Made by a program: the position numbers and the translations under genes. Shown here one piece after another: positions 43,813 to 49,046 of a DNA stretch of 64,000 nt; position 1 is the first letter of the stretch, and every line of letters begins with the position of its first letter. The notes under the pieces are model-generated. The model was not told where the DNA came from. It worked only from the letters and a program-made list of their open reading frames with translations, and did not search any database. This DNA comes from an uncultured Clostridia bacterium (lineage in GTDB: Bacteria; Bacillota; Clostridia; Christensenellales; CAG-917), in assembly GCA_947581925.1 (NCBI GenBank), contig CANPWB010000001.1:62001-126000 (forward strand). Direction: 5' to 3'.

Positions 43813-43838
43813 TGTAACCGTATGACTACTCAAACGTA
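43813..43838 (+). promoter_or_regulatory. ECF-type promoter TGTAAC-N16-CGTA
   Basis: TGTAAC 43813-43818 and CGTA 43835-43838 upstream of the ECF sigma gene. Confidence 0.65.
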
Positions 43839-43864
43839 TTTTTAGCAAAAAAGGAGAGCACGCC

Positions 43865-44347
43865 ATGAAGAACGCGGCTTTTGAAAAGCTGTTCAAGACA
43901 TATTATAACGAAGCGTTGCTTTATGTGTGCTCTCTGACTCACAACCGCGCGCTCGCGGAGGACATCGTGCAGGAGGCGTTTTCAAAGGCGCTCACCTCCA
44001 TAGACGACGAGAGGGACACCTTCAAGTATTGGCTGTTCAAGGTGAGCAGAAATTGCTACTTCGACTACCTGCGCAAGACGAAACGCCTTACGCCCATAGA
44101 CGACAAGCAGCGCAGCGAGGAGAGAGAACTCGTACAGGGTCTCATAGAAAAAGAAGAGTATGTGGCGCTGTACAAGGCGATATCCGACCTCAAAGAGAAC
44201 TACCGAGAAGTCGTGTTGCTTTACTACTTCGACGGGTTGAGCGTGAGTGAGATAGCGAACATTACGGGGCAGTCAACGGACAATGTAAAGGTGTTGTTGT
44301 TCAGAGCCCGTGCAAAATTGAAACAATTGTTGGAGGCGAAATTATGA
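43865..44347 (+). CDS. ECF RNA polymerase sigma factor
   Basis: ALAEDIVQEAFSKAL...YWLFKVSRNCYFDYLRK...LLYYFDGLSVSEIANITGQSTDNVKVLLFRARAKL. Confidence 0.95.
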   Translation: MKNAAFEKLFKTYYNEALLYVCSLTHNRALAEDIVQEAFSKALTSIDDERDTFKYWLFKVSRNCYFDYLRKTKRLTPIDDKQRSEERELVQGLIEKEEYVALYKAISDLKENYREVVLLYYFDGLSVSEIANITGQSTDNVKVLLFRARAKLKQLLEAKL

Positions 44348-45294
44348 ATTTCGAAGAGGTATTGCAAAAGGTCAAAGCGGGCACCGCGACCGACGAGGAA
44401 CGCGCCTTTTTCGAGAAGAGACTGGAAGAGGCTCGCTCCGCGCTGTCGGGCAAGAGACCGCTCGACTTTGACGAGGCTCTCTCCCACGTGCAGGACGGCA
44501 CCGCTACGGAGGAAGAGCGAGAGTATGTGACGAGCAGGCTTGCGGACGCTACGGCGTTTTTGGGTAGCTCGGCGGCGGAGGAGACCCCCGAGGAAGAGGT
44601 TTTAGACGAAGAGAACGCCGCAGAAGAGGATATCTCGGATGTTAGCGCCGAAAAAAAGAACGCTCCCGAAAACGAGGAAAATTCGGCGTTGGAGTTTGAG
44701 GAGGCGCTCGATCATGTGCAGCAAGGCACCGCTACGGAGAGGGAAAAGCTGTATGTAAAGTCGCAGATGGCGGCGGCGAACGCATTCTTCTCAAACGATT
44801 TCAGAAGGAGCGGTGCGCCCGTCAGAGAGGCGAGCGGCGCGGAAGTCAAGAAGGCTAAAAAATCCTTCAAGATGCGCTATATCGTCATCCCCATATGCGT
44901 TGTGATGGTCGTTATCTTGGCGGTGGGCGCGATACTCGGCGGCGTGTTCGGGTTTGCGGCAAGCAGCGCTCATAAAAACATGACGATAAGCCGCGACGAG
45001 TGCAAACAGCTTGCAAAACAGTATGTTCTTGACAGGCAAAGACAAATCTTTGTGGAGCTCGAACAGACTACATTCAATGCGGATCAGCTTTATATAGAGG
45101 ATGACGAGAGACACTTCAACTATAACGAGCATGACTTGAGCGCAAGCTATTATTCATACGAGATAGAAGTCAAGGGGCGCCTCTTTGTCGAGGGCGGCGT
45201 GCGCAAGCCTGTCGTCGAGATAGAGGTGAAAGTTGAGGTCAACTCTAAGACGGGGAATATATATGTCCTTGAAAGGGATATAGATTGGGATTGA
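44344..45294 (+). CDS. putative membrane anti-sigma factor with three GTATEEE modules and a PepSY-like C-terminus
   Basis: Overlaps sigma stop; three FxEAL..VQxGTATxEExxYV copies, one TM, extracytoplasmic domain. Confidence 0.65.
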   Translation: MNFEEVLQKVKAGTATDEERAFFEKRLEEARSALSGKRPLDFDEALSHVQDGTATEEEREYVTSRLADATAFLGSSAAEETPEEEVLDEENAAEEDISDVSAEKKNAPENEENSALEFEEALDHVQQGTATEREKLYVKSQMAAANAFFSNDFRRSGAPVREASGAEVKKAKKSFKMRYIVIPICVVMVVILAVGAILGGVFGFAASSAHKNMTISRDECKQLAKQYVLDRQRQIFVELEQTTFNADQLYIEDDERHFNYNEHDLSASYYSYEIEVKGRLFVEGGVRKPVVEIEVKVEVNSKTGNIYVLERDIDWD

Positions 45295-45304
45295 GAGGTG
45301 AAAT

Positions 45305-45847
45305 ATGAACTTTGACGAGGCGTTGAGACATATGCAGGAAGGCACTGCCACCGACGAGGAAAAGGCGTATGTGGAGGAGAAACTTAAGAGCGCGAACAAT
45401 AGCGTAAAAAGCGATTCTCCCCGCATTATCGAAAAGCCGAAACCAGCGAAGATAAAGGGACAAAAGAGAGAACGCAGCAAGTTTTTCACACTTATTGCCG
45501 TTATCATCGCGATATTTCTCGTGCTCGGCGTGATATTCGCGGGAGTTTTCGGCTCCGCGGCGGCGAATGCGAAGAAGGCGGAAGTCATAAGCAAAGCGGA
45601 AGCTCAAGAAATGGGGCAGATGTATGTTTACAGACTTGCACAAGACGGCGCTATGGCTCTTCCGCTTGTGACGTCTATTGACGATGTGAAACTTTACGAT
45701 ATTGACCACGACTTGGCCTATGATCCCGCAAAGCCCGCGAACAGCTATTATGTGTATGAGATAATTTACAATGTGATGGGCTCCCGTATCGAGGTCGAAG
45801 TTGACACGAGAAACGGCAATTGCGCGACCACAGACGTGGACAATTGA
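45305..45847 (+). CDS. putative second membrane anti-sigma/partner protein with one GTATEEE module
   Basis: MNFDEALRHMQEGTATDEEKAYVEEKLKSA, one TM, PepSY-like C-terminus. Confidence 0.65.
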   Translation: MNFDEALRHMQEGTATDEEKAYVEEKLKSANNSVKSDSPRIIEKPKPAKIKGQKRERSKFFTLIAVIIAIFLVLGVIFAGVFGSAAANAKKAEVISKAEAQEMGQMYVYRLAQDGAMALPLVTSIDDVKLYDIDHDLAYDPAKPANSYYVYEIIYNVMGSRIEVEVDTRNGNCATTDVDN

Positions 45848-45888
45848 CGCCCATATAAACCTGCGGCATTTCAAGCCGTATATCACGA

Positions 45889-45934
45889 CACACAAAAATT
45901 GCTCCCGATGTTTAGGGGAGCAATTTTTTGTGTG
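45889..45934. terminator. bidirectional terminator between convergent operons
   Basis: CACACAAAAATTGCTCCC..GGGAGCAATTTTTTGTGTG. Confidence 0.9.
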
Positions 45935-46020
45935 TTTATTGCGATTTTGTCCAAACGTCATGAGTTTTAACAACTTTTCAACCGACGTGAGTTTTTCAGT
46001 ATGTTTAAACGTTTTGAGCC

Positions 46021-46878
46021 TTACAGCGTGAAGGTTGGGACGACCGCGCCGCCGTAAGTCTTGTTGATGAAGTCAATGACCTCTTGAGATTTGAGCGCGT
46101 CTACGAGCGCCTTGATCTTTGCGTCGTTCTCGTGTCCCTTTTTGACGGCAATGACGTTTGCATAAAGCTGCGCCGCGTCGCCTTGCGCGTTCTCAATGCC
46201 GAGTGCGTCCTCTTTGGCGTTGAGTCCCGCTTGTAGCGCGTAGTTGCCGTTGATGACCGCGAGCGCGCCGTCATTTTGTTGATCGAGCTGAGCGGCGAGC
46301 GACTCTGCTAATACCGGGTTGATTTTGTTGCCGTTGTCGTTTGCGATGTCCTCAACGGTGAGATTTTCGTTGGGATCCGCATCGTTCTTAAGGGTGATGA
46401 ATCCCTCGTCTTGCAATACGTACAGTGCACGGGTGCGGTTGGAACCGTCGTTGGGGATGAGTATGGTGCGCCCGGTCTTTTGCGAAGCATAGTCCGTAGC
46501 GGTTACGTTCTTGCCATATACGCCAAACGGCTCATAGTGTATCTTTGCAACTGCGACGAGGTCTGTTTTGTAGTCATTGTTGAAGGTGTTGAGATAGGGC
46601 GTGTGCTGGAAATAGTTCGCGTTGAGCGAGCCTTCGTCAAGCGCGGTATTGGGCGTGGTGTAGTCGTCAAATACCTTTACGACAAGGTTGTAGCCCTGTT
46701 CTTTGAGCTTGCCTTTGATCGCATTCAGTATCTCGGCATGAGGGGACGCGCTGGCGCCGACGACGATGGTTTTAGGGTCGTTGGGATCGACTTTGTTGCA
46801 AGCGGTGAGCGCGAGTGAGAGCGTGAGCGCGACAAGCGCTACGCAGATGATGACAGCAATGAGTTTGTTCTTTTTCAT
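46021..46878 (-). CDS. metQ: methionine ABC transporter substrate-binding lipoprotein (NlpA/MetQ)
   Basis: VVGASASPHAEILNAIKGKLKEQGYNLVVKVFDDYTTPNTALDEGSLNANYFQHTPYL. Confidence 0.95.
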   Translation of the reverse strand: MKKNKLIAVIICVALVALTLSLALTACNKVDPNDPKTIVVGASASPHAEILNAIKGKLKEQGYNLVVKVFDDYTTPNTALDEGSLNANYFQHTPYLNTFNNDYKTDLVAVAKIHYEPFGVYGKNVTATDYASQKTGRTILIPNDGSNRTRALYVLQDEGFITLKNDADPNENLTVEDIANDNGNKINPVLAESLAAQLDQQNDGALAVINGNYALQAGLNAKEDALGIENAQGDAAQLYANVIAVKKGHENDAKIKALVDALKSQEVIDFINKTYGGAVVPTFTL

Positions 46879-46933
46879 AAAAATTCTCCTGAATTTGATT
46901 TTTATTTTTTTACGCCGGGGGCGGTGTTTTTGT

Positions 46934-47719
46934 TTATAAATTTTGATCGTCTTGCCCGACTATCTCGTCATTTTTTGTGGATATGGGGGCGGGAAGTTCC
47001 TCTACGGGCGGTTGAGCGGATACAACCGCGGCCTTTTTCACTTTTCCGAAATATACTCGCCTGTCAAGGCGTTTTGCCAGTAACATGCCAAGCTCCTGAA
47101 TGATCTGCACTATGACAATGGTGAGCACTACGCACAACCATATGACATCCTGCGCGTTTGACGGACGAGCTTGCGTTACAGCAAGCGAGCCGAGACCGCC
47201 GCCGCTTATCGTGCCCGCCATTGCGGAGTAGCCGATTATCGTGACCGTGGATATGACTGCGCCTACTATGAGGGAGGGCTTTGCCTCGGGCAGGTATACC
47301 TTCCAGATTATCTGCCACGTGTTTGCGCCCATGGATCGCGCCGCCTCGATGACGCCCTTGTCCACCTCTTTGACGGAGGACTCCACCATGCGCGCTATGT
47401 AGGGGGCGGCGGCTACGACAAGCATGAATATCATCGCCTCGTTGCCTATGCTCGTGCCTATTATCGCGCGGGACACGGGGATGAGCGCGACCATAAGTAT
47501 GATGAAGGGTATGGAGCGCAGAATGTTGACGATGACGCCCACTATCTTGTTCAGCCACGGAATGGGTTTTATGCCGTTCTTGTCCGTCGCGCAAAGCAAT
47601 ATGCCAAGCGGGAGACCTATGAGATAGGCGACGGCGGTGGAGATGAGCGTCATATATATTGTTTCAAATGCGGCGAGGGCGAACCCTTCAAAGCCGAGTT
47701 GTCCGAATAGCCTGCTCAT
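46934..47719 (-). CDS. metI: methionine ABC transporter permease
   Basis: TLISTAVAYLIGLPLGILL...VNILRSIPFIILMVALIP. Confidence 0.95.
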   Translation of the reverse strand: MSRLFGQLGFEGFALAAFETIYMTLISTAVAYLIGLPLGILLCATDKNGIKPIPWLNKIVGVIVNILRSIPFIILMVALIPVSRAIIGTSIGNEAMIFMLVVAAAPYIARMVESSVKEVDKGVIEAARSMGANTWQIIWKVYLPEAKPSLIVGAVISTVTIIGYSAMAGTISGGGLGSLAVTQARPSNAQDVIWLCVVLTIVIVQIIQELGMLLAKRLDRRVYFGKVKKAAVVSAQPPVEELPAPISTKNDEIVGQDDQNL

Positions 47720-48750
47720 AATTCCTCCTCAAATCGCACGTTGTGCCTCAAAAGATAGGATTTTGCCGCTTCGAGTTGTCCGTCCTCTTCGCTTACGGCG
47801 ATGACCATGTGCCCAAAGGACTTGCCGTCTATGTTTTTCGTGTCCGCATAAAGTATATTCGCCTTTACGCCGCACTCGAGCGCAAGCCCCGATATTACGG
47901 GCGTATCCGCCTCGTCGCCCGCAAATATGAGCCTCAGTTTTTTGCCGCCTTCGCTCTCTATAGCGCGGATAAGGTCGGGGATTATAAGCTCCTTTGCGAT
48001 GTCCGACTGCGGGGTGGAGAATACGTCCGTAACTTTGCCCGTCTCGGCGATCTTGCTGTTTGAAATGACAGCGACGTCCGTACATATGCTCTCGACGACC
48101 TTCATCTCGTGCGTGATGACTATGACCGTCACGCCCAGCTTTTCGTTGATGTCTTTGAGCAGAGCGAGTATGGATTTCGTAGTAGTGGGATCGAGCGCGC
48201 TCGTCGCCTCGTCGCACAGCAGATATTTTGGTCTCAGCGCAAGCGCACGCGCTATGGCGACGCGCTGTTTTTGCCCGCCGCTCAGTTGCGAAGGATAGGA
48301 GTTTGCCTTGTCGGATAGTTCCACAAGCTCCAAAAGCTCCTTCACGCGCTCATCTCGCCTTGCCTTTTCCACTCTGAACGGGACGGGGGAGTCTTTGGGA
48401 CTGCGCTTGCTCTGTCTTGGGGCGATGTCCAGCGGAAAACGCACGTTCTGCGCCACGGTGCGCTGTTCGAGCAAGTTGAAGTTTTGAAATATCATGCCGA
48501 TGTTTTTTCTGAGCAGGTTGAGGCGCTTTTGCTTTACGCGGGTGATATCCTCGCCGTCTATGATAACGCTGCCCTCGGTGGGCTTTTCAAGCATGTTTAT
48601 GCACCTGACCAGCGTACTCTTGCCCGCGCCCGAAAGTCCTATTACGCCAAAAATCGCGCCGTCCGGTATGGTGAGGTCGATGTCGTTCAGGGCAACGGTG
48701 TCGCCGCTCTTTGACGGATAGATCTTGGTGAGATGTTTGATTTCTATCAT
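47716..48750 (-). CDS. metN: methionine ABC transporter ATP-binding protein
   Basis: MIEIKHLTKIYPSKSGDTVALNDIDLTIPDG; Walker A GLSGAGKSTLVRCIN; C-terminal NIL-like domain; start at 48750. Confidence 0.95.
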   Translation of the reverse strand: MIEIKHLTKIYPSKSGDTVALNDIDLTIPDGAIFGVIGLSGAGKSTLVRCINMLEKPTEGSVIIDGEDITRVKQKRLNLLRKNIGMIFQNFNLLEQRTVAQNVRFPLDIAPRQSKRSPKDSPVPFRVEKARRDERVKELLELVELSDKANSYPSQLSGGQKQRVAIARALALRPKYLLCDEATSALDPTTTKSILALLKDINEKLGVTVIVITHEMKVVESICTDVAVISNSKIAETGKVTDVFSTPQSDIAKELIIPDLIRAIESEGGKKLRLIFAGDEADTPVISGLALECGVKANILYADTKNIDGKSFGHMVIAVSEEDGQLEAAKSYLLRHNVRFEEEL

Positions 48751-48814
48751 ACTGTCCTTATGCTCGCAGCGCGAGCGATGTTTTGTTTTGAAAATACGAT
48801 TTTTATTTTTATGT

Positions 48815-48848
48815 TGAAAATAAAATCGCTCGGGAGCTTTCCCGAGCG
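48815..48848 (-). terminator. intrinsic terminator in the metN leader (attenuator candidate)
   Basis: Minus strand CGCTCGGGA-aagc-TCCCGAGCG-ATTTTATTTT. Confidence 0.8.
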
Positions 48849-48869
48849 AGCATTGCTTTGACTTCAGCC

Positions 48870-48947
48870 TCAGAGGACGGCGAAAAGTCCCGACAATACT
48901 GCTCGGGATCTGCGCATGCCCATCATCATGTTGCTGATACGGAACAT
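48870..48947 (-). CDS. 25-codon Met-rich leader peptide MFRISNMMMGMRRSRAVLSGLFAVL upstream of metNIQ
   Basis: AAGGAGG SD (48954-48960), ATG 48947, TGA 48870-48872; 5 Met of 25 with MMMGM. Confidence 0.7.
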   Translation of the reverse strand: MFRISNMMMGMRRSRAVLSGLFAVL

Positions 48948-48975
48948 AATCCGCCTCCTTGCTTTGGATAGATGA

Positions 48976-49005
48976 AGTGTAGCAAACATTTATGCCTCGT
49001 GTCAA
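48976..49005 (-). promoter_or_regulatory. promoter TTGACA-N18-TACACT for the metN leader
   Basis: Minus strand TTGACA (49005-49000) and TACACT (48981-48976). Confidence 0.7.
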
Positions 49006-49046
49006 GCGAATTTTCAAAATTTTTCAATTGAGCGTATATTCGGCGC

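Follow-up and report, generated by a model that had tools for sequence, protein, structure and literature searches.

A probable sigM-yhdL-type ECF sigma operon with zinc-free hairpin modules repeated in its putative membrane anti-sigma factors

The window (the whole stretch of DNA that was analyzed, 64,000 nucleotides) was taken from a host genome of 1.74 Mb in 51 contigs, whose nearest named contigs belong to Clostridia MAGs from rabbit gut, and contains an operon in which an ECF sigma gene overlaps the gene for a 316-aa membrane protein, P0002, and is followed by the gene for a 180-aa membrane protein, P0003. The open reading frames (43865-44347, 44344-45294, and 45305-45847) are those that the earlier note had described, and the coordinate at which that note began, 43813, is the first base of a conserved ECF promoter. 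The features of the locus are listed here.

43813..43838, + strand: predicted ECF promoter TGTAACC-N15-CGTA (GTAACC-N15-CGT at this position in 22 orthologous loci; no other match in the window)
43850..43856, + strand: Shine-Dalgarno AAAGGAG of the sigma gene, read from the sequence
43865..44347, + strand: ECF sigma factor, 160 aa, SigM-like, with sigma-70 regions 2 and 4 (PF04542, 1.4e-12; PF08281, 2.8e-15)
44344..45294, + strand: P0002, putative membrane anti-sigma factor of 316 aa with three zinc-free hairpins, juxtamembrane helix, transmembrane (TM) helix, and PepSY-like ectodomain (ATGA overlap with the sigma gene; orthologues always adjoin sigma)
44347..44442, + strand: module 1 of P0002, aa 2-33 (HMM independent E-value, 1.9e-18; AF2 helices 3-12 and 17-35)
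44464..44559, + strand: module 2 of P0002, aa 41-72 (1.3e-20; AF2 helices 42-51 and 56-75)
44692..44787, + strand: module 3 of P0002, aa 117-148, the best conserved of the three (2.4e-20; helices in AF2)
44830..44880, + strand: basic juxtamembrane helix (EASGAEVKKAKKSFKMR), proposed helix-4 contact to sigma region 2 (conserved in the family; resembles the start of Sigma_reg_N)
44881..44961, + strand: predicted single TM helix with GGVFG motif (hydrophobic stretch; family-invariant residues)
44986..45291, + strand: extracytoplasmic PepSY-like domain of P0002 (AF2 helix and four strands at low confidence; relatives match PF03413)
45305..45847, + strand: P0003, paralogous one-module putative membrane anti-sigma protein of 180 aa (module HMM; AF2 model with pLDDT of 74)
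45308..45403, + strand: module of P0003, aa 2-33 (1.8e-21; AF2 helices 3-12 and 17-32)
45887..45936, + strand: predicted rho-independent terminator hairpin that closes the operon and may serve both directions (-28.7 kcal/mol; z, -8.0; U tract in the 3' arm)

The Pfam models for region 2 and region 4 both match the sigma factor above their cut-offs, and these are its only regions, as defines an ECF sigma factor, for which its length of 160 aa is also typical (about 160-190 aa). The NCBIfam model TIGR02950 (SigM_subfam) matches at 1.5e-33, yet under that model's own cut-off. The end of the sigma gene and the start of the P0002 gene share the sequence ATGA, and a search of the host genome with P0002 returned P0002 and P0003 as the sole matches. 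No Rfam element was found. On the minus strand at 46021-49017 lies an operon that by its sequence encodes a MetQ/MetI/MetN-like methionine ABC transporter and is convergent with the sigma operon; the hairpin at 45887-45936 could terminate both.

The 32-residue module that had been reported to recur four times is present exactly as quoted, three times in P0002 and once in P0003. With an HMM built from these four copies the module is recovered from all orthologues, at independent E-values of 1e-8 to 1e-21, and it is therefore not a chance resemblance. Each copy is modeled by AF2 as a two-helix hairpin (pLDDT of about 67 to 83), in models whose overall confidence is low for P0002 (54) and moderate for P0003 (74) and whose input alignments held only 3 and 6 sequences, respectively. 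In length the module falls short of the usual class I domain, and no third helix is evident: the models show two helices, a linker, and the juxtamembrane helix, whereas the class I (ASDI) scheme has helices 1 to 3, a linker, and helix 4. Cysteine is absent from all modules of the window, and the motif HxxxCxxC is absent from 49 of 49 modules. The zinc-binding His corresponds to position 26 of the module proteins, where K, R, E, Q, and other residues stand, and the first Cys of CxxC to position 30, which is mostly Ala. P0002 and P0003 scanned alone against Pfam and NCBIfam gave nothing usable, no model in either collection covers the module even in family-wide scans, P0002 has no match by sequence in the PDB, and no relative was found in viral contigs. 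The kinship to YhdL and to PepSY came to light only through family-wide scans plus class- and phylum-wide searches.

For these searches P0002, P0003, and the family alignments were compared with samples of the genus, family, order, and class, about 780 genomes in all. An ECF sigma gene lies directly upstream in all 40 of the module-bearing loci detected, so that the association that the earlier note proposed to look for near ECF sigma genes with a module HMM holds elsewhere. The 40 genomes comprise 22 of the host family, 10 of family f24, 1 each of f13 and f48, and 6 Clostridia with YhdL-type proteins. The start codon of the module protein overlaps the sigma stop codon or comes soon after it, and the junction is usually an ATGA overlap or has the Shine-Dalgarno sequence inside the sigma gene. 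Within the host family the sigma orthologue and the module protein are found together in 22 of 43 genomes and are both missing from the other 21, a concordance in 43 of 43. Because of this adjacency and co-occurrence, and of the homology to YhdL described below, the proposal that the module proteins act as anti-sigma factors is supported by the comparative evidence. The retrieved weak matches to the family alignment (L077-L088, among those with E of about 1e-7 to 1e-3) were set aside; they match in the TM segment only and have no sigma gene.

After the module, the proteins continue with a variable linker, the basic juxtamembrane helix, the TM helix (one is predicted in each of P0002 and P0003, as had been claimed), and the ectodomain. 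The latter had been called PepSY-like, and the description is supported: at E ≤ 1, PF03413 matches 14 of the 25 members of the family (7.7e-6 for the best of them; P0002 and P0003 themselves give no match), and the AF2 ectodomain consists of one helix and four strands, in line with PepSY. A profile search of the PDB gave a PepSY protein at 9e-4, the rest being chance matches. Foldseek gave no confident match; its top matches, which include YpeB and a vibriolysin propeptide, share a monellin/cystatin-like sheet. Module-less paralogues with a TM helix and a PepSY-like domain are encoded upstream of sigma in some relatives (L074:2078-2437, L075:2696-3070, L073:1897-2361, and L076:2177-2581), and in family f24 (L065, L066, and L069) the same slot holds a protein with multiple PepSY-like domains. 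The upstream paralogue is possibly a signal partner.

The motif TGTAACC-N15-CGTWT precedes the sigma gene in 22 orthologous loci, where neither GTAACC, CGT, nor the spacing between them varies; in L068, L075, and L146 it is located further upstream. Because the motif is kept before the orthologous operons, autoregulation by the sigma factor, as earlier suggested, is well supported. All promoter counts are drawn from related genomes. A motif scan of 16 genomes gave 1 to 4 sites per genome with the sigma gene, and the recurrent second site lies upstream of the gene for P0004, a polytopic membrane protein of 281 to 297 aa, which is followed by a gene for a protein of 435 aa that weakly matches Condensation and PapA_C. 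Among the 30 examined genomes with a P0004 orthologue, the motif (at most one mismatch) precedes it in all 20 that have the sigma gene and in none of the 10 that do not, a count from mutually related genomes for which no formal probability is claimed. The operon for P0004 and the Condensation/PapA-like acyltransferase, which in the host genome stands behind TGTAACC-N15-CGTA (L238:1392-3635; G000:C6:16891-19134), is a predicted second conserved target of the sigma factor and suggests an output in envelope or lipid acylation. Other motif matches, each in a single genome (G000:C16, L223, L220, and others), were rejected as chance-like, being inside genes, palindromic, or unconserved.

The earlier note had likened the module to zf-HC2 without its His/Cys ligands and had raised the possibility of a new anti-sigma domain. 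The likeness holds and the novelty does not. In hhalign comparisons, whose E-values here refer to single pairwise comparisons, the family aligns with YhdL-type N-termini at 97.6% (E, 3.9e-12; score, 47.3; columns 1-35 to 1-35) and with zf-HC2 at 93.4% (score, 28.6; columns 3-30) in identical register. Six Sigma_reg_C proteins of other Clostridia are matched at their N-terminus by the family profile, which also gives weaker matches to YhdL-type proteins from the rest of the phylum (L162, L164, L169, L171, and L173, fetched for their PF13800 domain); the module HMM alone, in a small set of open reading frames, matches the Sigma_reg_C proteins L147 (2.5e-9) and L148 (1e-8). An existing Pfam model, PF13800 (Sigma_reg_N), does name this type of protein, but its profile begins C-terminal of the module. 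It has no match in P0002 or P0003; relatives match its start at the juxtamembrane helix (best E, 5e-4), and the best of them reaches 20.8 bits, against a cut-off of 26.3, over that helix and the TM segment. Two Sigma_reg_N/C (YhdL-type) proteins (L165:1309-2472 and L185:652-1911) have a genuine zf-HC2 at the place of the module and are a direct link between zinc and zinc-free hairpins. It is improbable that the likeness to zf-HC2 reflects convergence among generic helix - G-x-[ST]-x-E-E - helix hairpins such as SHOCT. The SHOCT control (PF09851; 25%) does score 16.1, above the 11.7 (probability of at most 2%) that 100 column shuffles reach at most, but the YhdL-type and zf-HC2 scores are higher and in one register, and Sigma_reg proteins hold zinc-bearing and zinc-free versions at a single position. 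A new fold or a SHOCT-like identity was rejected on these controls, and zinc-binding zf-HC2 identity was rejected for the missing ligands. From the shared position and the hhalign scores, the best reading is that the module is a class I anti-sigma hairpin without zinc, with homology to zf-HC2 and to the N-terminus of YhdL; judged by profile comparison it is a branch of a known domain that has no Pfam model of its own, rather than a new domain. Zinc-free members are common in class I, where the zinc motif is missing from about 44% of the known domains (PMC7406223).

The number of modules differs among relatives. Outside genus g1 there is at most one module, and triplication and the module-bearing paralogue are confined to g1, whose genomes have a single module, with no paralogue seen (G010 and G014), two modules (G012), two modules and a one-module paralogue (G013), three modules and a one-module paralogue (the host, G000, and G011, G016, and G017), or three modules and a module-less paralogue (G015). 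Between G000 and G011, dN is 0.16, 0.10, and 0.04 for modules 1, 2, and 3 and 0.66 for the linker between modules 2 and 3, and dN/dS is roughly 0.04 to 0.27 over the three modules; all three are therefore maintained and are under purifying selection, and the long linker changes fast. This is compatible with the multivalent or graded sequestration suggested earlier, in which P0002 would be a sigma trap of three tandem hairpins with P0003 as a fourth, holding several sigma factors or one by avidity, with an induction threshold set by the one, two, or three modules per chain of each lineage; we regard this only as a tentative proposal. Somewhat easier to entertain, if still short of an even chance, is that a single module of P0002 works as an anti-sigma domain and the other two are kept for, e.g., oligomerization or contact with P0003. 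There is one juxtamembrane helix for three modules, and module 1 has lost some consensus residues (A6 to V and V23 to F), its dN being the highest of the three; however, G-T-A-T and the hydrophobic register are kept in all three, with the low dN/dS and the contrast to the linker given above. The modules might instead be mere spacers or partner-binding hairpins, and hence able to multiply or vanish, if the juxtamembrane helix alone, perhaps with the first helix, gripped sigma as in class II CnrY, which works by two helices only (PMC7406223). In genus g128, L072/L076 and L073 (module-less members at L073:2940-3461 and L076:3115-3594) have no recognizable module, yet the juxtamembrane helix, TM helix, ectodomain, and sigma adjacency remain, so that the module may not be the sole sigma contact; these members may be on a natural path of reduction to a minimal anti-sigma factor like CnrY. 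For the family as a whole we consider such a grip, by the juxtamembrane helix with at most the first helix, unlikely, as the modules are kept in all other members, are homologous to YhdL N-termini and zf-HC2, and have low dN/dS individually.

The locus is thus very probably an autoregulated ECF sigma/membrane anti-sigma operon of the sigM-yhdL type. The operon, coupling, co-occurrence, promoter, second target, and homology come from comparison, and the binding mode, signal, release, and stoichiometry are inferred, the mechanism being modeled on YhdL/sigma-M and class I complexes. In class I complexes helix 1 touches sigma 4 and helix 4 touches sigma 2 (PMC7406223), and sigma-M is bound directly by YhdL, which works together with YhdK, another membrane protein (PMC6827917). 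In the uninduced cell P0002 and P0003 would hold the SigM-like sigma factor at the membrane. Each module would fold as helix 1, the GTAT turn, and helix 2, with helix 1 capping sigma region 4 by the class I rule and the basic juxtamembrane helix acting as helix 4 on region 2. An envelope signal taken in by the PepSY-like ectodomain would loosen or destroy the complex; the freed sigma factor would read TGTAACC-N15-CGTWT and raise its own operon, whose anti-sigma products would give negative feedback, together with the operon for the polytopic membrane protein and the acyltransferase.

The analysis connects a protein family that had no annotation, from uncultured Clostridia of the gut, with the YhdL/zf-HC2 anti-sigma lineage and shows that within one genus a zinc-free anti-sigma domain has multiplied in tandem. 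The natural series of zero, one, two, and three modules is ready for asking whether anti-sigma valency sets the threshold of the response, and with its promoter and a second target operon at hand, the system lends itself to direct tests in a laboratory host.

The closest known system is sigM-yhdL-yhdK of Bacillus subtilis, in which a SigM-like ECF sigma factor is likewise followed by two membrane negative regulators, the operon is autoregulated, and YhdL (PF13800 Sigma_reg_N and PF13791 Sigma_reg_C) has a homologous N-terminal hairpin with a similar juxtamembrane helix and TM helix. Here, in contrast, the ectodomain is PepSY-like instead of Sigma_reg_C, the second protein is a paralogue with its own module, the modules are triplicated, and the PF13800 cut-off is not passed. 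Zinc-binding class I factors (zf-HC2, PF13490; RsiW, ChrR, and RsrA) share the N-terminal helix-turn-helix hairpin, its register, and the position beside ECF sigma genes, whereas the module has exchanged the ligands (K/R/E/Q for H, and mostly A for the first C of CxxC), is shorter, and is repeated in one chain. RseA and RskA also inhibit ECF sigma factors from the membrane as class I proteins without a zinc motif (PMC7406223) but carry a single anti-sigma domain and different ectodomains, and a profile search gave no sequence match between them and the P0002 family. CnrY of class II is a very short two-helix sigma binder (PMC7406223), which the module-less members may resemble, whereas the homology of the module is to hairpins of class I.
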